Source: Rhodoferax sp. AJA081-3 | Lineage (GTDB): Bacteria > Pseudomonadota > Gammaproteobacteria > Burkholderiales > Burkholderiaceae_C | Assembly (NCBI RefSeq): GCF_017798165.1 | Contig: NZ_CP059068.1 | Location: forward strand, 1,550,001-1,614,000 | Reading direction: 5' to 3' | DNA length: 64,000 nt | In this document: positions 10,357-31,474 of the stretch, piece by piece | Layout: each line of letters begins with the position of its first letter | Position numbering within the stretch: position 1 is the first letter of the stretch | Made by a program: the position numbers and the translations under genes | Notes under the pieces: model-generated | Seen by the model: only the letters and a program-made list of their open reading frames with translations | Told to the model about the DNA's origin: nothing | Databases searched by the model: none

Positions 10357-10818
10357 ATGGAACCCAAAATCTGCCCCTGCTGCGGCGAAGTCTTTCAACC
10401 CCGCCCACAGGTCCAAAACCAAACCTATTGCTCATCCCCAGCCTGCCAACGGGAACGACGCCAAGCCTGGCAACGCAAAAAGCTGCAGGACGACCGCTTC
10501 TACCGCGAAAACCGGCAGGACGCGCAGCGCGCCTGGCGAGAACGCAACCCGGACTACTCAAGCAACTACAGAGCCAAGAACCAGCAATACGCGGATCGAA
10601 ACCGCGATCAGCAACGCGCCAAGCCCAATGGCGTCCAGAGATTTGAACTCTCGAAGACGGACATGTCAATTTTGATGAGCGGCATTCCCGCTGGGATCTA
10701 CCGAATCCGGCCTGTTCCACTGAGCCAATCTGCAAAGATGGACGCGTGGATTGTGGAGATTTCTCCAGTGTGCGGCGACTGCCCCTGCAAAACAGACGCT
10801 TGCAAAGATAGGACGTGA
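10357..10818 (+). CDS. Cys-rich zinc-finger-like protein of mobile elements
   Basis: A 153-residue protein with a zinc-ribbon-like start (PKICPCCGEVFQPRP, then CSSPACQRERR) and an Arg/Tyr/Asn-rich middle (FYRENRQDAQRAWRERNPDY). A second Cys cluster is at the C-terminus (CGDCPCKTDACK). The ATG at 10357 follows TGGAGA and precedes the cysteine motif. Proteins of this type recur immediately upstream of serine recombinases in proteobacterial integrative elements, as here. It probably binds DNA, perhaps as an accessory or regulator of the recombinase. Confidence 0.7.
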   Translation: MEPKICPCCGEVFQPRPQVQNQTYCSSPACQRERRQAWQRKKLQDDRFYRENRQDAQRAWRERNPDYSSNYRAKNQQYADRNRDQQRAKPNGVQRFELSKTDMSILMSGIPAGIYRIRPVPLSQSAKMDAWIVEISPVCGDCPCKTDACKDRT

Positions 10819-10825
10819 TAGCCAA

Positions 10826-12445
10826 ATGACCGACCAGCCATTAACGTCCTCACCAAATGAACTCCACACGATCAGCGCCATGTCCACAGAAGAATCAAAA
10901 GACGAAGGGTTGGACTCGCCCGCCCAATTCCGGGCGGCAGAGTACGTTCGGATGTCGACCGAACATCAGCAGTACTCCACCGAGAACCAAGCCGACAAGA
11001 TCCGCGAATATGCCGCGCACCGTGGCATAAAAATCGTTAAAACCTACGCCGACTCAGGCAAGAGTGGCCTGAACATCGGGGGGCGACTCGCGCTGCAGCA
11101 ATTGATCAAGGATGTTGAATCAGGAGCAGCAGACTTTCAGATCATCCTGGTCTATGACGTCAGCCGCTGGGGGCGCTTCCAGGATGCCGACGAATCAGCC
11201 TATTACGAGTACATCTGCAAGCGCAAGAACATCCAGGTTGCCTACGTTGCTGAGCAGTTCGAAAACGACGGCTCGCCGGTGGCCACCATCGTAAAGGGCG
11301 TCAAACGCGCAATGGCCGGTGAATACAGCCGGGAACTGTCGGCCAAGGTGTTCGCTGGTCAATGTCGACTGATCGAATTGGGCTATCGCCAAGGTGGCCC
11401 GGCCGGATACGGACTGCGTCGCACGCTCCTAGACCAGACAGGATCCGTCAAATCGGAACTTGCTCGCGGTGAGCACAAAAGCCTGCAGACAGACCGGGTG
11501 ATCTTGATGCCCGGGCCGGATGACGAAGTGGAAGTTGTGCTCCAGATCTACCGATGGTTCACGGATGGCGCTTTGACTGAGTCAGAAATCGCGTTTCGTC
11601 TCAATCAGCAAGGCGTCCACACAGACCTAGGTCGTTGCTGGACCCGTGCCACTGTCCGTGAGGTACTGAGCAACGAAAAGTACATTGGCAACAACATCTA
11701 CAACCGTCGGTCGTTCAAGCTGAAAAAGCTCCGGGTGGAAAACACCCCGGACATGTGGATCAAAAAAGAAGGTGCGTTTAAGGCCATAGTGCCGCCGGAA
11801 ATGTTCTATGTGGCCCAAGGCATCATTCGGGCACGGTCGTACCGATTCTCCAACGTCGAACTGATTGAGCGACTGCGTTCGCTGTACCACGACCGTGGCT
11901 TTTTGTCCGGGCTGATCATCGATGAGACCGAAGGGATGCCTTCTACATCGGCGTACATCCACAGATTTGGCAGCCTGATTCGAGCCTATCAGGAAGTCGG
12001 GTTCACGCCCGACCGGGACTACCGGTATCTGGAAGCCAACCAGTTTCTGCGGCGACTCCACCCACAAATCGTTGCACAGACAGAGAAATCAATCGGTGAT
12101 CTGGGCGGCACTATTCAGCGCGACCCGGCAACCGATCTGCTCTTGGTCAATCGGGAATTCACAGTGTCACTGGTACTGGCGCGCTGCCAAACCCATGACA
12201 GCGGGCGCAATCGATGGAAAGTTCGGTTCGACACCAGTTTGGCCCCAGACATCACTGTGGCGGTGCGCCTTAACCATACCAATGACGCTCCGCTGGATTA
12301 CTACCTCCTGCCGCGTTTGGATTTTGGGCTCCCCCGCATCAGTCTTGCTGATCGCAACGCTATCGAAATTGAGAGCTACCGCTTTGACACCCTGGACTAT
12401 TTCTACGGCATGGCTCAGCGTACCCGCATACGGAGAGCGTCATGA
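10826..12445 (+). CDS. Large serine recombinase
   Basis: A 539-residue site-specific recombinase. The N-terminal resolvase domain carries the catalytic serine in EYVRMSTEHQ (S44) and the LVYDVSRWGRF segment with conserved Arg residues. The Recombinase domain follows (QGGPAGYGLRR, then YRWFTDGALTESEIAFRLN and NEKYIGNNIYNRRSFK). The usual Cys4 zinc ribbon is not evident, and the last 150 residues are a different, Arg-rich C-terminal part. The start at 10826 sits 8 bases after the upstream gene; a later ATG at 10880 is possible. It overlaps the first parB gene as ATGA. It likely mobilises the surrounding element. Confidence 0.9.
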   Translation: MTDQPLTSSPNELHTISAMSTEESKDEGLDSPAQFRAAEYVRMSTEHQQYSTENQADKIREYAAHRGIKIVKTYADSGKSGLNIGGRLALQQLIKDVESGAADFQIILVYDVSRWGRFQDADESAYYEYICKRKNIQVAYVAEQFENDGSPVATIVKGVKRAMAGEYSRELSAKVFAGQCRLIELGYRQGGPAGYGLRRTLLDQTGSVKSELARGEHKSLQTDRVILMPGPDDEVEVVLQIYRWFTDGALTESEIAFRLNQQGVHTDLGRCWTRATVREVLSNEKYIGNNIYNRRSFKLKKLRVENTPDMWIKKEGAFKAIVPPEMFYVAQGIIRARSYRFSNVELIERLRSLYHDRGFLSGLIIDETEGMPSTSAYIHRFGSLIRAYQEVGFTPDRDYRYLEANQFLRRLHPQIVAQTEKSIGDLGGTIQRDPATDLLLVNREFTVSLVLARCQTHDSGRNRWKVRFDTSLAPDITVAVRLNHTNDAPLDYYLLPRLDFGLPRISLADRNAIEIESYRFDTLDYFYGMAQRTRIRRAS

Positions 12446-13338
12446 CCAGAAAGCAGCCACTGGGCGATTTGCGCATGATCCCAATCGATCGAATCGAGGT
12501 GCTCAACCCTCGTGACCGGAACAAGGCGGTTTTCGATCAGATTGTTGAAAACATCAAATCGGTGGGGCTCAAGAAGCCGATCACCGTGACACCTCGCCCG
12601 ACTGACGACGGCGGAGAAAAGTATCTGCTCGTCTGTGGCGAGGGACGGCTCAAGGCCTTCATGGCTTTGGGCGAAACCACTATCGCTGCCCTGGTGGTCG
12701 ATGTCAGCGAGGAAGATGCATTCATCATGAGCATGGTGGAGAACATCGCCCGCCGCAAATCCAGCCCACTAGAACTACTGGCAGGCATCCAGCAACTGGT
12801 GGCCAAGGGTTATGACAAGAAGACCATTGCCAAGAAGACTGGCCTGAGCGTCGAGTACGTTCAAGGAATCATGTTACTCATAAAAAATGGCGAGGAACGT
12901 CTGATGGTGGCCGTTGAAAGTGGCCGCATACCGTTAAATGCCGCGCTGGCAATTGTTGGCGCTGGAAACAGCAATGAGGCGGTGCAAGCGGCACTTCAGG
13001 AAGCGTACGAATCTGGCCAGCTGCGCGGAAAACAACTGCTTCAGGCCCGCCGTGTGATCGAGAAGCGTCAGACCTTTGGTAGGACTCTGGGCCGGGGTAC
13101 GCCACGTGTGGCGGTCGACATCACCGCCTCAAGCCTGGTCCGGACTTATCAGAAAGAAGTCGAGAGGCAAAAGCTGATGGTGAAAAAGGCAGGCGCAGCA
13201 CAGCAACGCCTTCTTTTTGTGATCGGCGCACTGGGGCAACTCCTGGTCAATGAAAACTTTACCAACCTGCTCCGGGCGGAAGGCCTGGACACGTTGCCAA
13301 CCTACCTGGCCGAGCGTGTTTGGCCTAAAGGAGCCTGA
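12442..13338 (+). CDS. ParB/RepB-like protein 1
   Basis: A 298-residue ParB-superfamily protein. A ParB N-terminal domain (about 10-110) shows the R(I/V)xxLNPRD opening, CGEGRLKAFMALG and the VENIARRKSSPLELLAGI signature. An HTH (about 125-150, YDKKTIAKKTGLSVEYVQGI) and a RepB-like C-terminal helical region follow. In plasmids these bind centromere-like sites. No ParA ATPase is seen nearby, so classic partitioning is unlikely without a host ParA. It overlaps the recombinase stop by 4 bases, indicating co-translation. Confidence 0.87.
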   Translation: MTRKQPLGDLRMIPIDRIEVLNPRDRNKAVFDQIVENIKSVGLKKPITVTPRPTDDGGEKYLLVCGEGRLKAFMALGETTIAALVVDVSEEDAFIMSMVENIARRKSSPLELLAGIQQLVAKGYDKKTIAKKTGLSVEYVQGIMLLIKNGEERLMVAVESGRIPLNAALAIVGAGNSNEAVQAALQEAYESGQLRGKQLLQARRVIEKRQTFGRTLGRGTPRVAVDITASSLVRTYQKEVERQKLMVKKAGAAQQRLLFVIGALGQLLVNENFTNLLRAEGLDTLPTYLAERVWPKGA

Positions 13339-13339
13339 C

Positions 13340-14221
13340 ATGGCCCAGCTATCGCTCGCGTTTTTGCCCAATCCACTTTCCATTCCCTTGGACTTGATTC
13401 TTCCGTCACGCAAGGCGCAGGCCGTCATATTGACCACCAGAAAGTTCCTGCAAATTCAAGCCTCCATAAAAGCAGTCGGTTTGATCGAACCGCTGACGGT
13501 CGGGCCTGCGGATAAAAAAACAGGTCACCGAGTACTGATCGATGGTCATCTACGCCTCCTTGCGCTCAGAACGCTGGAGCGCGCTGAAGCACCATGCCTG
13601 GAATCCACGGATGACGAAAGCTACACCTACAACACGCGCATCAACCGTCTGTCATCCATTCAAGAACACGTGATGCTATGCAGGGCTGTGGAAAAAGGGG
13701 TTACAGCACAACGTCTGGCCGATGCGCTGGACCTTGACGTTTCCACCATCACCCGGAAACTCAATTTGCTGGACGGTATCTGCCCCGAAGCAGCCGCACT
13801 ACTGAAAGATCAGCAATTTGCATCGGACCTGGGCACAATTTTGAAAAAAATGAAGCCGATGCGTCAGGTCGAGTGCGTCGAGTTGATGGTGGACGCCAAC
13901 TGTGTCACCCTGGCCTATGCCAATGCGCTGTTTACTGCAACGCCAGCCTCGCAGTTGGTCGACCCAGGCAAACCTAAAAAGGTCGCTGGCGTGAGTCCCG
14001 CGCAAATGGCCAACATGGAACGTGAGATGGGAAGCCTGCAGGAGCAGTACAAACTCGTGGAGCAAAACTTTAGCCAGGACGTACTCAACTTGTTTCTCGC
14101 CAGCAAATACCTGTCCAAATTGCTGGAAAACGTTGAGGTCAACCGCTACCTGCAAATGCACCACCCGGAGATTCTGACGGAACTTAAGGCCATCGTGGAA
14201 TCCGAGACACTTGATGCGTAG
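13340..14221 (+). CDS. ParB/RepB-like protein 2
   Basis: A 293-residue second ParB-like protein in tandem, beginning at 13340 directly after the first. It keeps SIKAVGLIEPLTV, VLIDGHLRLLALR and an HTH (RLADALDLDVSTITRKLNL), but the core box is DGHLRLLA rather than the first protein's CGEGRLKA, and a C-terminal coiled region (EREMGSLQEQYKLVEQNF) follows. The pair are diverged relatives and may act as a heteromeric complex on the element's DNA. Confidence 0.83.
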   Translation: MAQLSLAFLPNPLSIPLDLILPSRKAQAVILTTRKFLQIQASIKAVGLIEPLTVGPADKKTGHRVLIDGHLRLLALRTLERAEAPCLESTDDESYTYNTRINRLSSIQEHVMLCRAVEKGVTAQRLADALDLDVSTITRKLNLLDGICPEAAALLKDQQFASDLGTILKKMKPMRQVECVELMVDANCVTLAYANALFTATPASQLVDPGKPKKVAGVSPAQMANMEREMGSLQEQYKLVEQNFSQDVLNLFLASKYLSKLLENVEVNRYLQMHHPEILTELKAIVESETLDA

Positions 14222-14225
14222 ATGA

Positions 14226-15626
14226 ATGCCAAGCCGCCAATATTTGCATCCACCGGCCAATCGGGGGCTGAATAGCGACGCAATCGCCCAGCCAGTGGAC
14301 GAGCAGTCCGAAGACGACTCGCCAGACACCCATCGCAACGCACCTCAGCCCGATCCAGTCTGCCTGTACGGTCTGGTTGGTGATGTGGCCCGGGCCGGAA
14401 GTGAAGGCACTGAAGCCAATCCCTATGCAATAGCGGCCAATTTCATGGCGTACTTGTCTTGCGCCATTGGCCGTGGTCCCTACCTGCCAATTGGCAACAC
14501 GTGGCATCACGCTCGTCTTTATATCCTGCACATTGGCAGGTCTGGTCGGGGCCGGAAAGGCGATGCCGTCTCACTTGTCAACCGCCTGGACACAGCGCTG
14601 CGTCAACTGCGGGAAACGGCAGCCCCCCCCATTCACCGAGGTGGTTTGTCAAGCCGTGAAGGTCTGGTATCACTATTTCATGATGGCTACAAAAATGGCA
14701 AGCTGGAAGTTCCGGCGATTCAAGATAAACGGTTGTGGGTTGTCGAATCGGAGTTTGCCAATGTTTTGCATCAGGGACGACGTGAGGGCAACACCCTGTC
14801 GGCAGCCCTGCGCGACTGCTGGGACGGCGTCAGCCTGAAACCCGCAACGAAATCGAACCGCCTTTATGCGAGTCATCCTCACCTGTGTTTGAGCGGAGCC
14901 ATATCGCCTAGCGAACTTTTGTCATTGATGCGCGCGCGTGAATTGACGAACGGCTTCGCCAACAGATTCCTGATGATTTGGGCGGAGCGGGAAAGGATTG
15001 TGCCGTTTCCACAAGCAACTCCGCAGGACGCGGTAGACGCGCTGGCCGCCAGAATTCTCAGCGTTTTGGAATTTGTCCAGGCCGAGCGAGTCAATGAACG
15101 GGATCACTTGCCAGTAACCCTGACAGCACAGGCACAAAGCATTTACTCCCAGCTCTATCGCGGTGAACTAATTGACGATAGCGCTGGCGAACATGTCACC
15201 GCAGTATTGGAGCGTCGTGCGCCGATGTTGCTGCGACTGGCGATGATTTTTGCTCTCTGCGACTTACAAACACGGATTGACGTCCAACACATCCAGGCCG
15301 CCATGGGCTGGATTCGCCATGGTGTCGAGTCAGCAAAATTCGTGTTCCTCAAAGCCACTGACGCGGCGGACACGATTCGAACCAACGCAGCGGTCAAGAA
15401 GATAGTCGAATTTTTGCGCCTCAAGGGGCAATCTACCCGATGGCAAATCACCAGCGAGTGTTTTCAAGGGCATGCCTCGAAAGCCATCATTGACGCAGCT
15501 ATCGAGAGGCTGCTGTTGGCCTCGCCACCTCAAATCACTGTCCAGACCCAACCACGCGCCCGAGGTGCGCGTGGTCCCCAAACCAACATCTACACCTTGT
15601 CCGCTACACGGCAACTTTCGGCATGA
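14226..15626 (+). CDS. DUF3987 family protein
   Basis: A 466-residue protein with DUF3987 features: NPYAIAANFMAYLSCAIGRG, the glycine-rich GRSGRGRKGDAVSL loop where a P-loop-like motif lies, WVVESEFANVL (Walker-B-like acid pair) and HLCLSGAISPSELL, then NGFANRFLMIW. DUF3987 proteins are helicase/primase-associated ATPase-like proteins of plasmids and islands. It follows parB2 by 4 bases and ends the module. A winged-helix-like C-terminus (RWQITSECFQGHASKAI) may bind DNA. Confidence 0.8.
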   Translation: MPSRQYLHPPANRGLNSDAIAQPVDEQSEDDSPDTHRNAPQPDPVCLYGLVGDVARAGSEGTEANPYAIAANFMAYLSCAIGRGPYLPIGNTWHHARLYILHIGRSGRGRKGDAVSLVNRLDTALRQLRETAAPPIHRGGLSSREGLVSLFHDGYKNGKLEVPAIQDKRLWVVESEFANVLHQGRREGNTLSAALRDCWDGVSLKPATKSNRLYASHPHLCLSGAISPSELLSLMRARELTNGFANRFLMIWAERERIVPFPQATPQDAVDALAARILSVLEFVQAERVNERDHLPVTLTAQAQSIYSQLYRGELIDDSAGEHVTAVLERRAPMLLRLAMIFALCDLQTRIDVQHIQAAMGWIRHGVESAKFVFLKATDAADTIRTNAAVKKIVEFLRLKGQSTRWQITSECFQGHASKAIIDAAIERLLLASPPQITVQTQPRARGARGPQTNIYTLSATRQLSA

Positions 15627-15795: not shown

Positions 15796-16602
15796 TCAAC
15801 CATCGACGCCTGAACGCGGAAAAGCCTCTTGGTTCAGTCCTTTGGTCAGCAATTTAAGCCGTTGCCAAGCCAATACGATTGCAGGATCCTGCTCTTTGTC
15901 GAGTTGTGCACGACTGCCATGGAATGAGTTGGTGAACAGGTGGTCGCGTCGCGCATCACGAATTGCAGGCTCAAGTAGCTCCCAGGGTGGAAGGCAAAGT
16001 GCCTCACGCCGTGGCAATGAGGCAGCCATAGACAAACCGCGCGGATCAAAATCAAAAAAGGCCAATGTCGGCCGGTGATCGTTCTCGATAAGCCGAGCCG
16101 CACCATCGGTTCCAAAGGTGTGGACCATACCTCGGAACAAGCCTAAAGTCGGCCTGCCCTTAATCAGATCCGTCAGCCACAGATAGTCCTTGATCTGCAA
16201 AAACGTTTCAAGGTTTTCGCACACCAGCAGAACTTGATATTGCATCGAAATGGCACTCTGCCACGGCATGGCCAAAAACCCATCTTTCGGGGAGGACACT
16301 TCCATTCCAATGGGAAACACCGCCACCAGGTCTTGCGCTACGGCCCTAGCACCACTTTTCTCCGAGCCTCCACGCGGAGCCTCGCTTCGGGTAAACCCTC
16401 GCGGTGGCGACTCCAGACCGAAACCACGCGTAATGATCAAACTGGCTGCACGCTCAAAATCCTGGGCACGATAGGTCACCTTGGAACCCAGCACTACCCC
16501 GAGCCCCTCTTCCCGAGAGAACTGGATTGCCAAATCACTGCGCCGCTCGACGGGTCGATCGGCAACAAGTCGGCGCAAGAATTCAACTTCCTTGGTCTTC
16601 AA
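15796..16602 (-). CDS. jetD: JetD/MksG-like Toprim nuclease subunit (short form)
   Basis: A 268-residue last gene of the SMC-like operon. A Toprim core is visible: LLVCENLETF supplies the catalytic glutamate (E129) and LAFFDFDPRGL the DxD pair (D184, D186). JetD/MksG cleaves DNA handled by the JetABC SMC motor and so destroys plasmids. Known JetD proteins are often near 400 residues with an N-terminal DUF3322 domain; here only about 115 residues precede the Toprim core. The start is TTG at 16602, overlapping the jetA stop as TTGA. The function call relies on the whole operon as much as on this protein. Confidence 0.8.
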   Translation of the reverse strand: MKTKEVEFLRRLVADRPVERRSDLAIQFSREEGLGVVLGSKVTYRAQDFERAASLIITRGFGLESPPRGFTRSEAPRGGSEKSGARAVAQDLVAVFPIGMEVSSPKDGFLAMPWQSAISMQYQVLLVCENLETFLQIKDYLWLTDLIKGRPTLGLFRGMVHTFGTDGAARLIENDHRPTLAFFDFDPRGLSMAASLPRREALCLPPWELLEPAIRDARRDHLFTNSFHGSRAQLDKEQDPAIVLAWQRLKLLTKGLNQEAFPRSGVDG

Positions 16603-17843
16603 ACGGCAGCTCCTTGCCGGTGCGCGACATTAGGAATCATCTTTCTCTTGGGAAATGCACGTGCATCCCGGAATGTGTGTGCAAATCGCTCACCATCACG
16701 CGGCAAATTGTGGACCAAATGAACCTCATATTGACCTGCACGTAATGCCGCCAATGCCAACACCAGCCAAATAGATGGAGGCATGGTCTGTGCATCGACA
16801 TTGCCGTCACGCCATTCAATGAGGGACAAGCCACTTTCCGCTGTACTGACGTCACGCAGTAATCTTCCCAAGGCCTTCATCGCGGGGGTAATCGGCCTTG
16901 GTGCAGGTGGGTCAACGATTCGTGTGTATCGTTTCGGCTCTTCAGCAGGTATTGGAGGGGCTGCTCTGGAGGGCAACGCACGTGCCAACGTGGCCATCTC
17001 ATCAACCATCCCACTGTCGCTCTCCATCGGTTCGCTATGTGCGACCAGAGGCGAAAGGCACGTGGCCAACAGGAAATCTGGAATTTCGCCAGAAAAATCC
17101 ACTTCGAATCCGCGCCATCCGGGTTGCTGACGCAGCAGCATGTCAGTTCGGGCCAGCAACTTTAGATCTTGCTCCACTACTCTTAAACGGTAGATCTCAT
17201 TGCGTAGGAACGTCTGCATGTCCGACAGTCCATGCTGCCAGGACATCATGTTGGTCAGCAACTGACGGCGAATGAAACGTGCCAGGTCATCTCGACCCCG
17301 GATGCTGGCCTCGCGCTCGACCCGTTCAGCCTCACGCGACAGACGCTGCACGTCGCCACTGAGGGCACTGGTCTGTTTTTGGTAGAAACGGTTTTGACTC
17401 TTCTTCGCGTCCAGGGAACGCACATTGCCGTAGCGCGTGCTCATGAGAATTTGCAGCTGCAGCATATTGCGATTCATCGTGTCGCCTATGTCGAGCACCG
17501 TGGTCTGCAATTCATCAATCATGCCGACAACCGACTCACGATCGCCACGCAGAAGCTCAACCTCATCCCAGAGCGATTTCAAAAGCGTAATCTTGGCTCC
17601 AATGTCTGCCAGGCTTTGAAATGCCGGAAATAGTTGAAGGTGATCCTGCAAGTATTCACGCAACCTGGGATGCAAACGGTAACCGTCGTCGCCTACCGGT
17701 CGCAAGGCCCCGACTTGGCGCAAGGCAAGAATCTCGGCGTGTGATACATCGTCGCCAACCACAACCACACCGGCCAAGGCCTGTGCCACTAAGTCGGCAT
17801 GGCGACTCAATGTCTGCAGGACGTCCTTGATCGGCGTGCTCAT
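16599..17843 (-). CDS. jetA: JetA/MukF/MksF-like kleisin subunit
   Basis: A 414-residue protein in the kleisin position of the SMC operon. An N-terminal winged-helix region (about 1-90, EILALRQVGALRPVGDDGYRL) is followed by a long helical middle (about 90-260) and a C-terminal domain after a Pro-rich linker (about 300-330). Sequence similarity to named families is weak, so assignment rests on size, helical content and the place between jetB and jetD. It overlaps jetB and jetD by 4 bases each. Kleisins bridge SMC heads. Confidence 0.78.
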   Translation of the reverse strand: MSTPIKDVLQTLSRHADLVAQALAGVVVVGDDVSHAEILALRQVGALRPVGDDGYRLHPRLREYLQDHLQLFPAFQSLADIGAKITLLKSLWDEVELLRGDRESVVGMIDELQTTVLDIGDTMNRNMLQLQILMSTRYGNVRSLDAKKSQNRFYQKQTSALSGDVQRLSREAERVEREASIRGRDDLARFIRRQLLTNMMSWQHGLSDMQTFLRNEIYRLRVVEQDLKLLARTDMLLRQQPGWRGFEVDFSGEIPDFLLATCLSPLVAHSEPMESDSGMVDEMATLARALPSRAAPPIPAEEPKRYTRIVDPPAPRPITPAMKALGRLLRDVSTAESGLSLIEWRDGNVDAQTMPPSIWLVLALAALRAGQYEVHLVHNLPRDGERFAHTFRDARAFPKRKMIPNVAHRQGAAV

Positions 17844-18508
17844 GGGGATTGCAGCCCACTGCGGTCACCGTCTGGAACATCCAGTCTGAGCTGGGTATCA
17901 ATCGAATCAACCACCCCATCATCTGACAACAGCGGCGTATTCTCATTGATGAAATTGAGTAACTGGTAAAGGTACTGAACCTTCCCCGTCACCTGATAGC
18001 CCTTGCTGGCAGCGTTGGTCTCCGCGATATAACCAGCTTTAACCAGCTGCTCCAGTACTCGCCTCACTCTGTCGATGGAAGAGTCAGTTGTTCGAGAACC
18101 ACTGATCTCCCGCATTTCGTTCAGGGTTCTCTCCAGCCGAGAGTTGGCGCGCACTGCTTCGCTGATTTCCGACTCCCAGATCATGTCCCCAGGGTGAATG
18201 TGTGGGTCACGCCCTTGAGTCTCGCGCAGTACTTCAAGAAAATGAACAATCGGATCCAGCTTGGTACGGACCGCGCGCATTTCTTCTCGCAAACCGGATC
18301 GCATCTCGTTCGTCACGATGGAATGCGCCATAAAAAATGCACCATCCTCGCCAAGACGGGCAAGTCGATATCCGATTAGCCCCAACCATTCCTCGGCCTG
18401 ACGCTTCCCACCCGCTTCCTGGAGAGTTTCAAATTCATCGGGGTAGTGATATGCGCAAACAAAGCAGCCCTCAGCAAGGCGCTTGAGAGCGGATTCAATT
18501 CTCGACAT
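17840..18508 (-). CDS. jetB: JetB/MukE/MksE-like subunit
   Basis: A 222-residue protein matching the MukE-like (KITE) subunit in size and position. The start MSRIESALKRLAEG at 18508 has a GGAGGAG ribosome site and overlaps the jetC stop by 14 bases. The second half has a winged-helix-like segment (SIDRVRRVLEQLVKAGYI) and YQVTGKVQYLYQLLNFI. KITE dimers bind the kleisin linker and DNA in MukBEF-type complexes. Direct homology is inferred, not proven. Confidence 0.78.
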   Translation of the reverse strand: MSRIESALKRLAEGCFVCAYHYPDEFETLQEAGGKRQAEEWLGLIGYRLARLGEDGAFFMAHSIVTNEMRSGLREEMRAVRTKLDPIVHFLEVLRETQGRDPHIHPGDMIWESEISEAVRANSRLERTLNEMREISGSRTTDSSIDRVRRVLEQLVKAGYIAETNAASKGYQVTGKVQYLYQLLNFINENTPLLSDDGVVDSIDTQLRLDVPDGDRSGLQSP

Positions 18509-21500
18509 AGAAATCCTCCTCCGCATTGATACGTGTGGTTGCAATAGCCCCCGTGTTCTCGAAATAGCTTAGCCGACTGAATTGCCTAGCAAGTGCTGGA
18601 TCCACGCTTGGCGAAGCACTGATTACGTCGATCTGATGGTCATTGAGCGTCTGCATAAATGACGCAAGATTGCCAGCATCAAACCGCCCGACCTCGTCAG
18701 TCACCCAAGTCAGTCGTACGCCGGAGTCAGTACCCCGTATCATTTGGACGAAGCCCATCAGGAACATTGCAGTGATTAGCGCCGTATTGCCATTGGACGA
18801 AACAGCTTGGAACTCCTCTTGGTTGGTGATGCGACGAGCCTGACCGTTTTCCACCAGCGAGCACTCCAGCCGAACATGTTCGCTGAGATTAACCTGCACC
18901 CGACCATCGGCTGGCAAGATGTCCTTGAACTGACGAACCAACATCACGTCATCAACGGTCGGCAGCTCGCGCTCCTGAATGGAATGTGTGCGCCAGCTGG
19001 AATGTCGACTCAAAGACACATCGCGCATCTTGCGCAGCACATTGAGATATTCAATTTGATTCACACCAGACTTTACAGTGACCGACAAATCGCGAAAGCG
19101 TTCAAATTTGGCGGTGTCGGACAGGGCCTTCTGAAGCTGGGTGTTGAAAGTCTGAATGCGCCGGTCAAAAAGGTCCAAATCACCGACAAAGGTGCTGGCC
19201 AGATCCATAAATCCGACCATTTCCTTATTGAGCTGATCAATGTACGGGCCACATTCCATGGGTTCGAACCAGTCAATCAGTACACGAGCCTTTTCACAAA
19301 ACCATTCGTGCTCGTGCAACGTTTGCTCATCAGGTAACTCCTTCTCACGCAACTCAACCCACTGCTGGACGCCGCCAGCCTTACTGAGCATCAAGTTGCG
19401 CAAGGCACGTGATTTCGCTTGGAGGTCCAGCGCATCAACCCTGAGGCTCTCTCGCAGTCCTTCAATCTTTTCCTTGAGCGTTTCAACACTCCAATCAACA
19501 TGCAACTTGGAAGGAACATATGCGTCGAACATTGCCAAGGGCCCGTCGCGCAGCGATTTCAAGGACGTGAGTTCCTGCTCCCTCTTCTGTATGCCAGTAT
19601 CCATTCGCTGAAACTCCAGGCGTGCGTCGGTCTGCAAATTTGTGAGGGACCGCCCATGCTCAAGGCGCACGCTCTTTTCTTTATCCAAACGTTCTTTCGC
19701 CTCTTGTGCCTCGCGCCGCCAGGTTGGCAACAATGGCTCTATCTCTACACGAAACTTGCGCCATAAAGTTACCTCATGGCGATTGGAGGCAATTGAATTT
19801 AAGAGCCCGCCCAGGTGGCTTATTTCACTTTCCAAAGAAGCTACACGTTGCGGGTCGATGCCAAGCCCCGCGAGTTCACGTGCAATGTCAGCTTCCAGGG
19901 CCATCTGCTGGTCTTTTCTGCGCTGCTCCGCCCCCAGTTGTTCCCCATCGAGTCGCTGCGTTGCCTCGTTGTACTCGTCCCGCAAGCGGTCTCTGCGTGC
20001 CGTGTAATCGGCCTTTAGACTGGTCAAACGACTTGCTGCTTCTTCGTTCAACTTTCGACCTTCTTCTGCCAAGTCATGCAGTTGTCGACGAACGCTGGCC
20101 AGTTTCCTCTCTGCGCCAGTCTTACAGGCCAACTCCTCCTGAAGGACTACATTTTCGGCTCGTGTAACGTTGGTCTCAGTGTTTCCCATCGCAGCATCGG
20201 CCAACGCCAAAGTCGCCTCGGCCTGTTCTCGCAGACTTTTGGCAGCAACAAGAGCCTTCGCTGCTTTCTTGGCATTGTCTTGTGCTTCGGTCTGCAAGCG
20301 CGTTGCCTCAACACGCCCGGCTTGTGCCTTTGCTATTTGCTCTCGCAAATCCTTCATATCAACCCAGGACGGCACATCCAGTTCGGACACCCGCAAGGAA
20401 ATGCCACCAACGTCGGCATGTTCTGCTTGCCGCGCATCGCCAGAGTCATTTACGACAATATGCGGAGCAAGATCTTGCCGACTGAGCAATGCGGGATCAA
20501 TGACTTTGGCTGTATCTGACCAAAGCTGAGGATCAACGCCTCGGAAAAATGCCAGCAAGGATCCAGGGGCAGGATCCAGTTTCGCGTTTAAATTTTCTAT
20601 TTCAGCGTCAATGATCTGAATTTGCTGACCATACGACGTAAGCCGATCAGTGGCCTGCTTAGATTCAAACTGACAAGTACGCTCGGCGGCTTGAGCAGCG
20701 AGAAGTCCTTTACCGGCGACCCCATGCTCTGATCGGATTCTGCCTACCTCGGATCGTGCAGCGCATAAATCAGCCAACGATTGGCTACTGGCCGCAGGGC
20801 GCTTAATGGTTACACCCAGCTCTCCGACCTGAACATTTAGGCCATCAATTTCAACGGGGATTTGAATGAGGCGCGCTGGCTTCTGCAGTGACTCTTCGTC
20901 TTTATTCTGCTGAGTCTCCAGGCTTTTTGACATGGTCGACAGCTGCTCGACCTCAGACTGGCGCGCCGTACTGATTCGCCCGTGCTCCTTGGTGTATTCA
21001 GTCTCAATTTCCTGGTTCCGTGCGACCTTGCGCGTCGCCACGTCTCCACCAGCTTTGTTCAACTCAGCTAGCTCCGCTTCTTTCGAAACTTTGGTTGATT
21101 TGTGACTCGCCTCTGACGCTTCCTGATCGGCAAGGCTCTCCACATTGATTTTGGCGAAATACTCGATGCGAGATACAGCTGTAGCGACCCTGGAACTTGC
21201 AACTGAAGCAGCATCTTCAAGAGGCGGAATCGAGAGGTCTAGCTGAGCGATAGCCTCCTCTATGCCTTCCGCTTGAGCGGTAACTTCCTCAGTGCGCTGC
21301 TCTTTGCGCTTGACCAATTCGTGATGCTCTTTCTCGACCTGGCTGATCGCCGCCTTTACTGCCAATTTCAGCGCACTGAGTTCTAGGTGAAGTCCTTTGA
21401 CTCGGTCGGCTTTCGCCTTGAGCTTTTGCGCTTCCGGTACTGCCTTGGATACAGCGACCATATGGTCATGTGCTTCCAGCCACTGAGAGACATCATTGCG

Positions 21501-22205
21501 ACTTTTCTTGAGTTCACGCCGACTTTGCGCCGGGTTTGCCACGTCGCCCTGCAAATCGGATACGCGCTCAATCACGATATTCTGCAAATCCCGAAAATTG
21601 ATTTTTTCGTTAGCCATGGCGGCGGCGATTTGTTCCAAGTTTGTCAGGGGCTTGGGCCCCAATGAATGTACCGCCGCAAGACGCCGCAAGTCTGCTCCTT
21701 CCTTGGTGGAAAGACGCTCATTGAGAATCACACTTCGATACTGATTGAGCATCAGTTTGCGCGTGACCTCGTACCCCATTTCCTCAACACGCCGAGGATA
21801 TTCATCCCGCAATACAAACTGGTTGTTTTCGTCGTAGAAGAAGTCCTCACGGAATCCTGCATGGATGATCCGAAATTCCGGAGCGTCGGCATTGCTTTGA
21901 CAATGCATCACAACGCAACGCAGATCATTCGCAGTCTCACGTTCGTATTCATAGACCACGCAGCTGCTCGGATCCGGCAGCAGGTAGGCAATTAGTGAAT
22001 CACGTCCACTTCCGCGCAGAATTTGAGAGGTGGTCGCTCCATAGAAAACGGGTAAGAGGCGCAAAAACGTTGTCTTACCAACACCGTTTTCGCCGATAGC
22101 CAGCACTCCACCACGAGGATCAAGCTCTGCGACACGACCAGTAGGTAGTCGTGTGATGGAATTTTTAATATTGATGGCGACGATGCGCCGCAATTGGTAT
22201 GGCAC
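18495..22205 (-). CDS. jetC: JetC/MukB/MksB-like SMC ATPase
   Basis: A 1236-residue SMC-type motor. Walker A is GENGVGKTT (residues 38-46). Long coiled-coil arms of Glu/Lys/Ala/Leu heptads (about 240-420 and 620-900) flank a less coiled middle (about 420-620), the expected hinge. The C-terminal head has SSNGNTAL in the ABC signature position and Walker B WVTDEVGRFD (D1170-E1171). Such SMC complexes extrude plasmid loops and deliver them to the Toprim nuclease. The start is GTG after AGGGGG. It leads the operon, unlike the usual jetA-jetB-jetC-jetD order. Confidence 0.9.
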   Translation of the reverse strand: MPYQLRRIVAINIKNSITRLPTGRVAELDPRGGVLAIGENGVGKTTFLRLLPVFYGATTSQILRGSGRDSLIAYLLPDPSSCVVYEYERETANDLRCVVMHCQSNADAPEFRIIHAGFREDFFYDENNQFVLRDEYPRRVEEMGYEVTRKLMLNQYRSVILNERLSTKEGADLRRLAAVHSLGPKPLTNLEQIAAAMANEKINFRDLQNIVIERVSDLQGDVANPAQSRRELKKSRNDVSQWLEAHDHMVAVSKAVPEAQKLKAKADRVKGLHLELSALKLAVKAAISQVEKEHHELVKRKEQRTEEVTAQAEGIEEAIAQLDLSIPPLEDAASVASSRVATAVSRIEYFAKINVESLADQEASEASHKSTKVSKEAELAELNKAGGDVATRKVARNQEIETEYTKEHGRISTARQSEVEQLSTMSKSLETQQNKDEESLQKPARLIQIPVEIDGLNVQVGELGVTIKRPAASSQSLADLCAARSEVGRIRSEHGVAGKGLLAAQAAERTCQFESKQATDRLTSYGQQIQIIDAEIENLNAKLDPAPGSLLAFFRGVDPQLWSDTAKVIDPALLSRQDLAPHIVVNDSGDARQAEHADVGGISLRVSELDVPSWVDMKDLREQIAKAQAGRVEATRLQTEAQDNAKKAAKALVAAKSLREQAEATLALADAAMGNTETNVTRAENVVLQEELACKTGAERKLASVRRQLHDLAEEGRKLNEEAASRLTSLKADYTARRDRLRDEYNEATQRLDGEQLGAEQRRKDQQMALEADIARELAGLGIDPQRVASLESEISHLGGLLNSIASNRHEVTLWRKFRVEIEPLLPTWRREAQEAKERLDKEKSVRLEHGRSLTNLQTDARLEFQRMDTGIQKREQELTSLKSLRDGPLAMFDAYVPSKLHVDWSVETLKEKIEGLRESLRVDALDLQAKSRALRNLMLSKAGGVQQWVELREKELPDEQTLHEHEWFCEKARVLIDWFEPMECGPYIDQLNKEMVGFMDLASTFVGDLDLFDRRIQTFNTQLQKALSDTAKFERFRDLSVTVKSGVNQIEYLNVLRKMRDVSLSRHSSWRTHSIQERELPTVDDVMLVRQFKDILPADGRVQVNLSEHVRLECSLVENGQARRITNQEEFQAVSSNGNTALITAMFLMGFVQMIRGTDSGVRLTWVTDEVGRFDAGNLASFMQTLNDHQIDVISASPSVDPALARQFSRLSYFENTGAIATTRINAEEDFYVEN

Positions 22206-22414
22206 GGTACCCCCTAGTAGTTTTATTCGCTATCAACCTGTCGGCCGCCACTCCGTACCGTGGCAAAGTCACCCAAGGAAATCACATTGACTCAAACGCA
22301 TTCGAAAGCAGGATTGCACTCAATATATCATCAAATTGATGATATTAACGTTAAATATTTAGCCTATACAATGACTGTTTTAAATCTCCATAGTAGTCAA
22401 CTTAAGATTAGGCC
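22206..22414 (+). promoter_or_regulatory. Divergent promoter region of jet operon and WYL regulator
   Basis: About 200 AT-rich bases separate the start of jetC (minus) from the WYL gene (plus). The centre holds a perfect palindrome (22325-22345) and a 10-bp TTAACGTTAA palindrome (22345-22354), making this the likely control point for both defence operons. Confidence 0.75.
22325..22345 (+). promoter_or_regulatory. Perfect palindromic operator
   Basis: ATATCATCAA (22325-22334) and TTGATGATAT (22336-22345) are perfect inverted arms with a single central base. WYL regulators of the BrxR/CapW type bind such palindromes in the promoters of defence islands. The site lies midway between the two divergent starts. 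Confidence 0.75.
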
Positions 22415-23335
22415 ATGGTACATATGCATCCCCAAAGGGCTGAGAGTTTGAGTCACGGCCAGCGAGAACGACTGGCCTACATCGACTTTCGCCTTTACTT
22501 TCTGGGCGAAATTGGCCGCCCTGATCTGGCGAACCGTTTTGGCGTCGCCCCTGCGGGAGCTACACGGGATCTGGCGCTCTATAGAGAGATCGCTCCACAA
22601 AACATCGAGTTCGACGGCAGCGGAAAGATCTATCGCATTGGCAAGGGCTTCGCGCCGATCTTTGTCCATACCTCTCAGCGAGTCCTGTCGGCACTTGCAT
22701 TTGGTTTTGGCGATGGCGTTAGTGGAGATTCACAACCTCTGCTACCTTGTGAATCGCCTGCGGTCTTGAGCAGCCCAAAGATGGAAGTTCTGGCTCCGAT
22801 TTGCCGAGCCATTCACGCCAAACGCCCTGTGGCAATCCGCTACCACTCAATGAGCAGCGGCGGGTCGGAGCGTGTAATCGTGCCCTTTGCTTTGGTCGAC
22901 ACCGGCTTGCGCTGGCATGTTCGGGCGTTTGATCGCAAGAGTAGCGAGTTCCGCGACTTCGTCGTCACCCGCATTGAAGTTCCGACCTTGCTCGATGAAG
23001 AACCCAAGGCGAGCGAGCGGCCGGACAACGACATTCAGTGGACGCGGATCGTGGAGTTGGACTTTGTACCCCACCCACGCCTGAGTCATCCTGAAATCAT
23101 CAAGATGGATTACGGGATGAAGGATGGTTCGATACGGATGCGCGTTCGCGCGGCGGTAGCTGGCTACATGCTGCTGCGATGGAGCGTGGATGCGTCTCCA
23201 GACCACAGCTTGACAGAAGAACAATACCGCCTCTGGCTGCGTGACCCGCTGGCCCTTTATGGCGTCGAGAACGCAAAGCTGGCACCGGGATATCGATCGC
23301 CAGGCACACAAAAAGTCTTAGGCAAGGCTGACTGA
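22415..23335 (+). CDS. WYL-domain transcriptional regulator (BrxR/CapW-like)
   Basis: A 306-residue regulator with an N-terminal winged helix (about 15-70, [19 protein letters not shown] then [11 protein letters not shown]), a WYL domain (about 125-215) with [19 protein letters not shown] and [11 protein letters not shown], and a C-terminal extension (about 220-300). This is the architecture of BrxR/CapW, dimeric repressors that guard BREX, CBASS and other defence islands and are thought to sense nucleic-acid signals of infection. It is divergent from jetC, 46 bases ahead of hsdM and next to a perfect palindrome. The ATG at 22424 is an alternative start. Confidence 0.88.
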
Positions 23336-23381: not shown

Positions 23382-26103
<2,722 letters not shown>

Positions 26104-26123
<20 letters not shown>

Positions 26124-27426
26124 ATCAGTAATTGATATCCCAAATGAAGCCGGATGGCCGGAACGAACTCTAGAACGTATGTGCTCGACCCTTTCGAGGG
26201 GAACAGCACCTGTTTATGTCGAGCATAGCGATGTGCTAGCAATTGGCCAACGGTGTGTTACCGCACTTGGATTTGATCCGTCCTTTGCGAGGCCGCATTC
26301 AGCTCGTGCGATGCGAAATGTTCTGAAACCAGAAGTTGGCGATGTTCTTCTCAACTCCACAGGTACTGGAACGATTGGCCGCTCCTGCGTCTTTGACAGT
26401 TCGAAGGTCTTCATTGTTGACGGCCACGTTACGTTGTTGCGCTCGGTACCTGATCAATTTCGAGGCGAATGGCTTGATGCAGTCCTGAGATCGTCTTGGT
26501 CCCAAAATCACCTCGAGCGGTTTTGCTACGCTGGTTCAACCAATCAAGTGGAGTTAAGTCGAACGGAACTCGCTGCGACTTCGCTTCCTGTTCCAAGTAT
26601 TAATGAACAAAATGACTTCGTAAGAATATTCAATACCCTTGACGGTGCAATCCGAAAAACGGAAGCCATCGTCGGAAAGCTGAAGCAGGTGAAGCAAGGC
26701 TTGCTGCATGACCTGTTAACGCGTGGAGTGGATGCGAACGGGGAAATGCGCCCTACCAAGGATCAGGCGCCACATCTCTACCAAGAATCCAGATTGGGCT
26801 GGATACCAAAGGACTGGACTCTGCGATCCGTTGCCTCACTTGGTGAAATTAGGTCTGGAAGTACGCCCTCTCGCGGGAAGGCCCATCGCTACTTTCATCC
26901 CGAAGGAACGCCTTGGGTGAAAACTCTTGATCTGAATGAAGATGTCATCCGAAAGACGGATGAATGCATCACAGTCGCGGCACTACGGGAGAGTTCCTGC
27001 TCAGTACTGCCAGTAGATTCGGTATTGATTGCAATGTACGGCGGCTGGGAACAAATTGGACGAACTGCAATTCTGGGCGTTCCTGCCGCGACAAATCAGG
27101 CTCTCAGTGCTTTGACGATCAGCGACCCTGACGCCGTGCCGGAGTACGTGCTAAGGGCACTTCAGCATGGAAGACCCAGATGGAAGCGGGTTGCAGCCAG
27201 CACACGGAAAGATCCAAATATCACAAAGGCAGACGTCGAGACGTTTGAACTGGCGATGCCGTCTACCAAAGATGAGCAGGACGCGATCGTGACGCGATTC
27301 CGCGCCTTGTTGACCAGGTTTGCGATTGAAGAAGTGGAGCTTCACAAGCGACACGAAGAAAAAACCGGTGTCATTGATGACCTCCTCACCGGCCGCGTCC
27401 GAGTCACCCCGCTGCTGGCGCAATAA
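26104..27426 (+). CDS. hsdS: Type I specificity subunit HsdS
   Basis: A 440-residue DNA-recognition subunit with two target recognition domains. The first ends with the conserved helix [20 protein letters not shown] and a coiled segment ([20 protein letters not shown]). The second begins at [20 protein letters not shown] and ends with [17 protein letters not shown] and [16 protein letters not shown]. The two-fold layout predicts a bipartite target. The ATG at 26104 follows CAGGAG; 26116 is possible. The TRD sequences are unique enough that the target cannot be stated. Confidence 0.94.
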
Positions 27427-27442
27427 GAAGAAGGACTTGACC

Positions 27443-30400
27443 ATGGGATGGGAACTCAAAGACGTCGAAAAGCCGTTCGTCGAGCAACTGGAAGGCCTGG
27501 GGTGGACACACATCTCGGGGAGCATCGATGAGCCGGCTGTCACCGGCCGCGCGAACTTCACCGAAGTTATCCAGGAGGGCGTGCTGCGCGCCAAGCTGGC
27601 TGAAATTAATTTGCGCGAGGTGGATGGGGCATTCTTGCCCTGGCTGGATGATGAACGTCTTTCTGAGGCGGTTGCGGCGATCACGCGTATTGCGCGGCCC
27701 AAGCTCATCGAAGCCAACCAGGCGGCTACCGAATTGCTGTTGCTTGGTATTACCGTCGATGGCTTGCCCGGCTGGGACGGCGGGCGCGGACAGACCATCC
27801 GCTTCATCGACTGGGACACACCTGAGAACAACAGCTTCACGGTCGTCAACCAGTACCGCGTAGATTGCCCGCCCGGCTACAACAGCGGCAAGGCCTTCAT
27901 CGTGCCGGACCTGGTGCTGCTGGTAAACGGCATTCCGCTGGTGGTGGTGGAGTGCAAGAGTCCATCCATCCCGGAGCCGTTGAGTGAGGCCATCGACCAG
28001 TTGCGCCGCTACAGCAACCAGCGGCACGCCAACTACGAGGTGGAAGACAACGAGGGCAACGAGCCGCTTTTCTTCACCAACCAGTTGATGATTGCATCCA
28101 GCTTCGACGAAGCGCGGGTGGGCACCATTGGCGGCCTGTTTGAGCACTTTGCCACTTGGAAGACCGTGACCCCGGCGCGCGAAGAAGACGTTGCCGCCAG
28201 CATGGGGGTTGCCGCACTGTCCGAGCAGCAACGGCTGGTGGCGGGCATGCTCACCAAGACGAACCTGCTGGACATCGTGCGCCACTTCACCCTTTTCATG
28301 CAGGCCGGTGGGCAGACCATCAAGGTGGCGTGTCGCTATCAGCAGTTCCGCGCGGTCAACAAGGCGATCGGGCGCCTGCAAAGCGGTAAGACCCGCCTGC
28401 AGGACGGTGAATACGACCGGCGCGGCGGCGTGATCTGGCATACCCAGGGTTCTGGCAAGTCGTTGACCATGGTGTTCCTGGTGCGCAAGCTGCGTACCAA
28501 CGCAGCCCTGCGCCGCTTCAAAGTGGTGGTGGTGACCGACCGCAAGGACCTGCAGGACCAGCTTAGCGCCACTGCAGCGCTGACCGGCGAAGTGGTTGAG
28601 GTGGCCACATCGACGGTAGCCGTGCAGAAACTGGTGCGCCGCAAGGGCCCCGGACTGCTGTTTGCCACGATTCAGAAGTACCGCGACCCGGATGCTGCCG
28701 GTGAGCCAGGCCTGACCGAGGATGACATTCCCGAGGGCTGGCACGACGGACAGATGGGCGTGAAGGAGCCTGCGGCGGCCTATGTAGCCAAGCCAGCCGC
28801 CAAGACTTTCGAGGTCTTGAACGAGGACGAGACCATCCTCGTACTTATCGATGAGGCGCACCGCACCCAGGCGGGTGACTTGCACGCCAATCTGCTGGCG
28901 GGGCTACCCAACTGCGCGCGCATTGGCTTCACCGGTACGCCGATCATCATGGGTGACAAGAAGCGAACCCATGAGATTTTCGGCGAGTTTATCGACCGCT
29001 ACACGATCAAAGAGGCTGAGGAAGACGGCGCGACCGTGCCCGTTCTGTATGAGGGCCGCACCGCACAAGGTGCGGTCAAGGACGGGGCCAGCCTGGACGA
29101 ATTGTTCGAGGACTTGTTCCGCGAGCGTAGCGCCGAGGAGCTTGAGGCGATCAAGCAGAAGTACGCCACAAAAGGGCAAATCTTCGACGCCCCGCTACTG
29201 ATCGCGGACAAGGCGCGCGATATGCTGCGCCACTATGTGACCAACATCCTTCCCAACGGCTACAAGGCGCAGGTGGTGGCCTACAGCCGCTTGGCAGCGG
29301 TACGTTACGCGGCCGCGTTTGAAACAGCCAGGTCTGAATTGCTGGCCGAAGCAGATGCGTTGTCACCCGAAGACAAGGCGCTCGACGACGAGACGCTGTG
29401 TCAGCGTCCGCCCAAAGTGCAGGCCATCGTGCAAGCCTGGCGCTACCGCAACACACTGAAAAAGATCGAGTTCGCAGCAGTGATCTCCGGTGGCAACAAC
29501 GACGATCCGGCTTGGAAGCAGTGGACAGACGCTGCGGCTAACGAGACACGGATCAAGCGCTTCAAGAAACCGCTGTTCCACGCTAAGCCGGAGAAGACCG
29601 ACCCGTTGGCTTTCCTGGTCGTGAAGTCGATGCTGTTGACTGGCTTCGATGCGCCGATTGAAGGCGTGATGTACCTCGACCGCCCGATCCGCGAGGCGGA
29701 GTTGCTGCAAGCCATTGCCCGCGTGAACCGCACCGGGTTTGGCAAGCGCTGCGGCATCGTGGTGGACTATTACGGCGTCGCCCAGCACCTGAAGGAAGCC
29801 TTAGCGGCCTACGCCGACGAGGACATCCAGGGTGCATTGCAGAGCCTGAAAGACGAAGTACCTGCGCTACGCGATCGACACATGCGCGTGGTGGACCTCT
29901 TCCGCAGCCGCGATATTGAGTCCCTGGACGATGTAGAGACCTGCGTTGAAGTCCTGGCGGACGAACGGCTGCGCGCGGAATTCACCGTCAAACTGAAGCA
30001 GTTCCTGGGGTCACTGGACATGGTATTGCCCCGTCCAGAGGGCTTGCCCTTCTCCAAGGACGCCAAGACCCTCTCATACATCTACGCCCGAGCCCGCAAC
30101 CGCTACAAGGACACCCCGGTTCTGGGCAAGGACGTAGGCGCCAAGGTCCGAAAGTTGATCGACGACCATGTGATCTCGCTGGGTGTCGATCCCAAGATTC
30201 CGCCGATTGCACTGACCGACGCGCAGTTCGACACGCATCTGTCGCGCCAGGCGAATGACCGCGCCAAGGCGTCCGAGATGGAGCACGCTATCCGCTCCCA
30301 CATCCGCAAGCATCTGGATGAGGACCCTGTGCTGTTTCGCAAGCTCAGCGAGCGACTGAACGAGATCCTGAAGACACTGGCGGATCAGTGGGATGACCTG

Positions 30401-31470: not shown

Positions 31471-31474
31471 AACG

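Follow-up and report, generated by a model that had tools for sequence, protein, structure and literature searches.

We analysed a stretch of 64,000 nucleotides from Rhodoferax sp. AJA081-3 (contig NZ_CP059068.1, positions 1,550,001–1,614,000; hereafter the window) that carries an operon of four overlapping genes, termed C, B, A and D in their order on the transcript. Our results suggest that C-B-A-D cassettes form a branch of their own within the Wadjet/MksBEFG group, whose systems destroy foreign circular DNA, and we consider it probable that they encode a nuclease-armed complex of this group directed against circular DNA. Three lines of evidence carry this reading: (i) B, C and D are homologues of JetB, JetC and JetD of Wadjet type I (JetABCD, which is the MksBEFG of Corynebacterium), with hhalign probabilities of 88–98%, as a first-pass annotation had proposed in assigning the system to the Wadjet/MksBEFG family; (ii) the structural maintenance of chromosomes (SMC) proteins of such loci form one clade; and (iii) none of the four window proteins matches a Jet model of Wadjet types I–III in PADLOC-DB (2023 version) at E up to 1. 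The SMC tree and the absent Jet matches also support the distinct subtype that the first-pass annotation had put forward.

All four genes lie on the minus strand of a 5.17-Mb genome assembled as a single contig. Gene C (18495–22205; 1236 amino acids (aa), GTG start) encodes an SMC ATPase in the JetC/MksB position, as judged from PF12128, motifs and hhalign; gene B (17840–18508; 222 aa) encodes a KITE protein of the MksE/JetB type, as judged from the MksE family PF21980, hhalign and the starts of its relatives; gene A (16599–17843; 414 aa) holds the kleisin (JetA/MksF) position by place and size; and gene D (15796–16602; 268 aa, TTG start) encodes the predicted short Toprim nuclease subunit in the JetD/MksG position, as judged from DUF7281. 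The four overlapping open reading frames (ORFs) in the order C-B-A-D are thus where the first pass had placed them, and the motifs quoted for C (GENGVGKTT, SSNGNTAL and WVTDE) and D (LLVCENLETF and FDFDPRGL) are all present. The description of B as a MukE-sized protein holds, but its proposed 234-aa frame from a TTG at 18544 is less likely than a 222-aa frame that begins with the ATG at 18508, the length seen in the closest full-length relatives, L002 and L003. With B beginning there, the genes overlap by 14, 4 and 4 bp.

The C-B-A-D order on one strand is found in 28 loci, the window included, and in one of them (L021) the SMC gene is split by an insertion sequence (IS). The departure from the usual A-B-C-D order is therefore real and conserved. 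It had been described as a reversal, which is true of the A-B-C core only; D stays last, as in A-B-C-D. The 28 loci comprise the window, L002 and L003, ten plasmid loci (L008–L015, L017 and L019), a cyanophage (L020), the plasmid locus L021, three further plasmid loci (L167, L171 and L172) and ten genomes of the DUF7281 survey (L059–L068). Among the plasmid carriers is NC_007901 of Rhodoferax ferrireducens, whose proteins include WP_011458577.1 and WP_041793478.1. Thirteen of them (the window, L003, L008–L015, L017, L019 and L020) served as profile seeds and were picked for the size and location of their genes, some subunits also having Pfam matches; the remaining 15 were found or confirmed by profiles built from these seeds. 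The survey covered Pseudomonadota, one cyanophage and some Bacteroidota records.

We compared the subunits with sets of known or related systems using hhalign. The type I set consists of 10 of the 20 fetched JetD_C loci, chosen for four clear frames and the order A-B-C-D; PADLOC types 4 of its 10 JetC proteins as JetC1, and we assign the remaining six from JetD_C and from where they fall in the tree. The comparison loci that we take to be MukBEF and MksBEF were labelled by size, order, MksE matches and motifs, and the MksBEF set holds three loci after exclusion of L156, and of L160 for B, for overlong or unclear frames. For D, the homology sets hold 22 of the 28 loci (i.e. all except L002, L021, L068, L167, L171 and L172). 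In 12 crossed control pairs of family against type I subunits, the probability was at most 1.8%.

Gene C has the features of an SMC ATPase of the MukB/MksB/JetC kind. It matches PF12128 (DUF3584) at 794 bits across residues 17–1216 and contains a Walker A motif (GENGVGKTT, residues 38–46), an SSNG signature (residues 1136–1139) and a Walker B motif (TWVTDE, residues 1166–1171), and both Walker motifs are retained in all 23 SMCs of the family alignment. The sequence SSNGNTAL does stand in the signature position, as the first pass had remarked, but it is not odd, since MksB-like proteins have AASNGTT there (3/3 examined), and we no longer count SSNG as an unusual signature. The hhalign probability of C is 98.4% (E 9e-15) against type I JetC, or 98.2% with L164 added and another alignment mode, 91.4% against the MksBEF set, 58.8% against MukBEF and 33.7% against type II (one locus). 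It reaches 99.7% against a set of loci ordered D-C-A-B and 98.9% against the pair L159/L069. In sequence searches of the PDB, C alone gave chance-like matches only, and the C alignment matched a dynactin coiled coil. According to the accessible text of PMC10586767, an LmuB-type SMC-like protein is common to all Lamassu systems. The window SMC has no match to LmuB in PADLOC at E up to 1; a relative from Vibrio matches LmuB at 2e-9, and one type I JetC does likewise at 9.4e-12.

Gene B is a KITE subunit (MukE/MksE/JetB) on two grounds, i.e. a match to MksE (PF21980) of 31.3 bits, above the cut-off of 27, and an hhalign probability of 89.6% (E 1.9e-6) against type I JetB, which becomes 87.9% with L164 added and the other alignment mode. 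Its values against type II (one locus), the D-C-A-B set and the pair L159/L069 are 0.9%, 5.3% and 19.8%, respectively, and a PHROGs search gave one weak match of unknown function. Gene A is the putative kleisin by position and size. Neither Pfam nor PADLOC gives a match for it at E up to 1. Two weak links lead towards MksF: A reaches 51.5% (E 1.5e-4) against the two-sequence, MksF-like set L159/L069, whose A proteins match MksF at 100%, and the family A profile matches the A protein of L159 at 4.6e-5.

Gene D is, by homology, a Toprim nuclease subunit of the JetD/MksG kind within the operon. It matches DUF7281 (PF23947) at 49.5 bits (cut-off 27), with predicted metal-site residues E129, D184 and D186, and its hhalign probability is 90.4% (E 1.4e-6) against type I JetD, 96.5% against the D-C-A-B set, 85.8% against the D protein of L069 and 34.4% against type II (one locus), a comparison limited by the fact that type I and type II JetD themselves reach only 32.7%. 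The Toprim E/D/D residues are invariant in 22 of 22 aligned family D proteins and in 16 other D proteins aligned. A bridge between the two families is provided by the D protein of L071, which matches JetD_C at 7.7e-6 (above the cut-off), PADLOC JetD1 at 5.1e-8 and DUF7281 at 2.8e-4 (below the cut-off), and DUF7281 and JetD therefore meet in one protein. Support from the PDB is weak: one D profile matched topoisomerase VI-A (2zbk, E 0.0078), another had the MksG structure 8b7f as its sole match at E up to 1 (E 0.98), and a search with the D protein of L168 found nothing. Topoisomerase VI-A is described as structural kin of MksG/JetD in the accessible part of PMC10123090.

The shortness of D, noted by the first pass for the 268-residue window protein, turns out to be a trait of the whole family. 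The Toprim glutamate lies at residue 129–149 in 21 of the 22 aligned family D proteins (the exception, at 195, has an overlong called start), compared with 248–277 in all ten type I JetD proteins and 316 in the one type II JetD; total lengths are 265–308 aa in 21 of the 22 and 382–415 aa in 10/10 type I JetDs. The window protein has 128 residues before this glutamate, and the family has roughly 100–150 fewer than type I JetD, so the JetD N-terminal region is indeed reduced. Type I JetD, at about 380–415 aa, has an N-terminal CAP-like domain; a small CAP-like domain possibly remains in D, and the 'simplified nuclease arm' once proposed for this system would follow from the same reduction. The short form extends beyond the C-B-A-D clade, because the D-C-A-B proteins and L069 have their glutamate at 123–155. 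Within PADLOC, one JetD1 model (PDLC00531) itself spans just 234 positions. We considered whether the missing part of D had been fused elsewhere in the operon and dropped this idea: neither A nor B exceeds its type I counterpart in length, and C is longer than MksB.

The cassette was then set against each known type. Like Wadjet type I, it has an SMC, a KITE protein, a kleisin-position protein and a Toprim subunit in one operon, with the E/D/D residues kept. By contrast, type I has the order A-B-C-D (10/10 loci used), a longer JetD, an SMC elsewhere in the tree and PADLOC Jet matches. In PADLOC, four JetC1 proteins used as a positive control score 1597–1832 bits. Other family members are seen faintly: the Vibrio relative matches JetB1 at 1.7e-5, JetC3 at 9.8e-6, JetC1 at 2.6e-5 and JetC2 at 0.058, and the C protein of L164 matches JetC1 at 7.9e-5. 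No NCBIfam family reached its cut-off for the four window proteins, and the family D profile matched one JetD (L083) of the 20 JetD_C loci, at 0.01. Type II is represented by one locus (L152), the one JetC2 locus kept (594 bits) from a JetC2 scan of 249 genomes; it has the order A-B-C-D and a 447-aa JetD, which the window does not share. A JetC3 scan of the same number of genomes gave no type III locus that convinced us (84 genomes had weak matches, the highest at 34.5 bits), and the comparison with type III was made through the PADLOC JetX3 models alone. We read the weak JetC2 and JetC3 matches of these scans as coiled-coil noise.

The SMC tree was built from the N- and C-terminal heads of 56 proteins (453 columns). 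The SMCs of 28 loci with the order C-B-A, with or without D (L164 included, the IS-split L021 left out), form one clade with 99 in the Shimodaira–Hasegawa-like approximate likelihood ratio test (SH-aLRT). The same clade is recovered (100/99) when the long branches L152 and L071 are removed (54 proteins, 458 columns; the long L085 and L086 kept). Its sister is a Bacteroidota group (97/95), followed by MksB-like proteins together with the D-C-A-B loci (96/88), with MukB and type I JetC on the opposite side (93/90). The SMCs of the C-B-A-D family would thus fall on the MksB side, but this deep placement is tentative: the tree program flags the meeting of long branches as a risk, and in the pairwise profile comparisons B and C score higher with type I than with the three loci of the MksBEF set. 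MksBEF condensins resemble the window in their SNG-type signature, MksE-type B and side of the tree (93/90); they differ in lacking D, in the order F-E-B and in an SMC of about 943 aa compared with about 1236 aa. If the deep placement holds, the turned core would have arisen on the branch leading to the 28, the short D would be older, and nuclease-free MksBEF would sit beside nuclease-armed loci.

Two further groups lie near the family. The D-C-A-B loci (L070, L071, L161 and L162) and L069 share the short D (260–293 aa); unlike the window, they have SMCs of 923–998 aa, other gene orders (with A assigned by position) and places in separate clades. In the D-C-A-B loci, the short JetD comes first and is followed by an SMC of 978–998 aa, a 464–478-aa protein and an MksE-sized protein, and PADLOC sees them weakly (JetD1 at 5.1e-8 for L071). 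They are possibly a further branch of the same group. The Bacteroidota loci L168, L169 and L173 are linked to the window by the sister SMC clade (97/95) and SMCs of 1209–1233 aa. After C, L168 carries a D of 284 aa, with a family-profile match at 3.3e-10, L169 a 297-aa ORF that is Toprim-like by eye and missed by the profile, and L173 none. The Bacteroidota records differ from the window in a core order of A-B-C, where A (and in L018 also B) is assigned by position or size. Two of the Bacteroidota 'plasmid' records (L018 and L173) have housekeeping genes close to the locus and may belong to chromosomes.

A literature search found no paper naming the C-B-A-D branch; a 2025 survey of Wadjet-group operons, consulted in its available portion, may list the clade in its Data S1 (PMC7617805). 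The same search found neither DUF7281/PF23947 nor a Wadjet type IV or like name in papers, and no name for the D-C-A-B loci or L069; DUF3584 occurs in five papers.

By analogy with published type I systems, we infer complex formation, extrusion, cutting and a plasmid target, as follows. C would dimerise through its hinge and bind ATP between its heads, which A (as kleisin) and B (as KITE subunit) would bridge; two motors joined through A would extrude DNA loops; and, once extrusion on a small circle is complete, the stalled motors would engage a D dimer, whose metal-dependent Toprim sites (E129, D184 and D186) would cut both strands, with loss of the plasmid or other circular element. Because roughly 100–150 residues of the type I JetD N-terminus are missing from D, a smaller N-terminal domain, or a larger share for A-B-C, would probably underlie its self-inhibition and activation. 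A bolder version, which we regard as possible and hold with reserve, is that these cassettes are a further Wadjet type, i.e. a branch on the Mks side with half the JetD N-terminal region and a turned core; that MksBEF arose from that side by loss of D; that plasmids, a Tn7-like element and a jumbo cyanophage exchange the cassettes and use them as weapons on other circular elements; and that the nuclease is held off by A-B-C and not by a long JetD N-terminus.

Several results weigh against a Wadjet-like nuclease aimed at circular DNA. Gene A scores only 0.1–1.1% against the JetA I, JetA II, MukF and MksF sets (type I 0.2%, or 0.1% with L164; MksBEF 0.6%; MukBEF 1.1%; type II 0.2%) and 2.2% against A of the D-C-A-B loci. 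This failed kleisin comparison says little, because JetA, MukF and MksF also miss each other (0.2–0.8%). Gene B reaches only 61.4% against MksE and 1.8% against MukE; at E up to 0.05, not one of the 20 JetD_C loci was matched by the family C, B or A profile; and, in the PDB search that yielded topoisomerase VI-A, an unrelated cytochrome chain outscored it (8.3e-4). The literature search found no experiment on any C-B-A-D member. Finally, intact copies occur on plasmids, one of just 40 kb, although an anti-plasmid nuclease that senses size should attack such carriers. There are 13 intact plasmid copies, on records of 40 kb to 1.17 Mb, and 12 of them are on records of at least 107 kb. Wadjet reportedly spares circles above about 50–100 kb (PMC10586767, available text), and the large carriers thus fit the Wadjet size limit, whereas the 40-kb plasmid pACI-b25a does not: it bears an intact cassette (L014:1073-7547) and falls within the size range that Wadjet reportedly destroys. 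An explanation of carrier sizes of at least 107 kb as an escape from self-restriction was dropped, given one intact copy on 40 kb and no plasmid-size baseline.

The same carriers could speak for another function, namely that the complex serves mainly to condense or partition large replicons, as MksBEF does, with D a topoisomerase-like helper or dispensable. This is consistent with the 12 of 13 intact plasmid copies on long records, with D-less MksBEF on the same side of the SMC tree and with L164, which keeps C-B-A without D. It is an unlikely account, however: D is present in 28 of the 29 loci that share the order C-B-A (two damaged E. coli loci excluded), its metal-site residues are invariant in 22/22, the host has a canonical chromosomal SMC of its own (C1:767203-770658, a 1188-aa frame), the family is sporadic, and long plasmids are favoured carriers for any 6-kb cassette, so that carrier size is weak evidence.

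A scan of genome contigs with C gave three records (L002–L004), all Burkholderiales or beta-proteobacterial metagenome-assembled genomes, and JetD_C (PF09983) occurred in 22 of 200 genomes. The sporadic distribution of the family shows in two surveys: in the search of relatives, PF12128 was above its cut-off in 2 of 101 genomes (own genome included), and DUF7281 gave 14 matches in 13 of 398 genomes of the phylum, window included. Ten of the 13 non-window matches are complete C-B-A-D loci (L059–L068), and the other three, with SMCs of 923–998 aa, are L069 (A-B-C-D) and L070 and L071 (D-C-A-B, both below the family cut-off). By tblastn, the window C found 25 plasmid records and one phage record, and the SMC of a survey genome found 40 plasmid records, some not intact or of other order. 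We opened 23 records, of which L011, L168 and L169 are unannotated and were read from ORFs. The cassette is mobile: its carriers are chromosomes, plasmids, a Tn7-like element and a cyanophage.

Some relatives are damaged, which would fit a decayed or inactive cargo operon. In the IncC plasmid L021 of Enterobacter, an IS splits C; L170 has a C fragment; and two E. coli chromosomal loci beside yghD, C-B-A-D by annotation, are both damaged, with D in two ORFs (L182) or IS911 at the end of C (L183). By DNA, 11 of 5426 E. coli genomes match, over 3–7% of the query in the ten matches listed. In Cupriavidus necator pENH92 (L016:7778-9831), A and D stand alone with C and B not nearby, which is either a remnant or a separate use of D. 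For the window itself decay is highly improbable: all frames are open, the motifs are intact, and the ratios of nonsynonymous to synonymous substitution (dN/dS) are 0.05–0.21 against L002 and 0.06–0.08 against L003 (the latter a rough figure only, since dS exceeds 1.2). All four genes look conserved under purifying selection, which is compatible with a working nuclease complex.

The surroundings of the operon also bear on its possible targets. Beyond a divergent regulatory gene lies a defence island (window 23382–34803) with a type I restriction–modification system (HsdM, HsdS and HsdR), a YgjP-like protein and an McrB/McrC-like pair, a setting that also favours the reading as a nuclease-armed complex against circular DNA. 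A complete C-B-A-D set, with all four genes annotated as hypothetical, is present on the 209-kb cyanophage Dfl-JY45 of Dolichospermum (PP438435.1; L020:6001-12356), and the relative on the IncC plasmid L021 adjoins Tn7-like transposition genes. The system could accordingly serve defence or competition between elements mainly against phages, through their circularised genomes, and not against plasmids. The operon's place beside type I restriction–modification and McrBC, and the phage-borne and transposon-linked relatives, fit this idea, which we judge quite improbable, given that the homologous Wadjet systems act on smaller circular plasmids (PMC10586767, available text). The system is carried by one phage record of 50,697, and three scans of viral contigs found no relative.

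On the other side of the operon, a mobile module convergent with D (10751–15626, plus strand) encodes, according to Pfam, a serine recombinase, two RepB/ParB-like proteins and a DUF3987 protein. All four of these genes stand beside D in L002 (L002:9610-13381), two in L003 and one in L004. Upstream of C, a divergent intergenic region (22206–22414) is a putative control region between C and a gene for a WYL-domain regulator (22415–23335, plus strand; PF13280, 50 bits). A WYL relative is found beside C in 3 of the 34 loci compared, i.e. L003 (89%), L021 and L061 (28–29%), and the WYL protein possibly controls the C-B-A-D operon. Within this region, the palindrome ATCATCA-AAT-TGATGAT (22327–22343) is a candidate operator. 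It is the only match in the window with up to one mismatch (0.01 expected) and is found again in L003, where it likewise lies between C and the WYL gene; no locus other than L001 (own genome) and L003 carries it among the 181 scanned. It is possible that the palindrome acts on both divergent units. Promoter and terminator scans gave nothing above chance. The right part of the window is probably filled by a prophage; a tape measure protein (PF20155) is encoded at 46415–50431.

No system shows more clearly than Wadjet how an SMC motor can measure DNA before cutting it, but most research has dealt with type I (PMC10586767, available text). Because its nuclease subunit is short by nature, the clade described here offers a test of which part of JetD serves self-inhibition and activation. 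A place in the tree near MksB bears on whether chromosome condensins derive from defence systems by loss of the nuclease. Also, barriers between plasmids and hosts may be under-counted, because DUF7281 is present in 13 of 398 genomes while PADLOC-DB gives no or weak Jet matches for the C-B-A-D members scanned.

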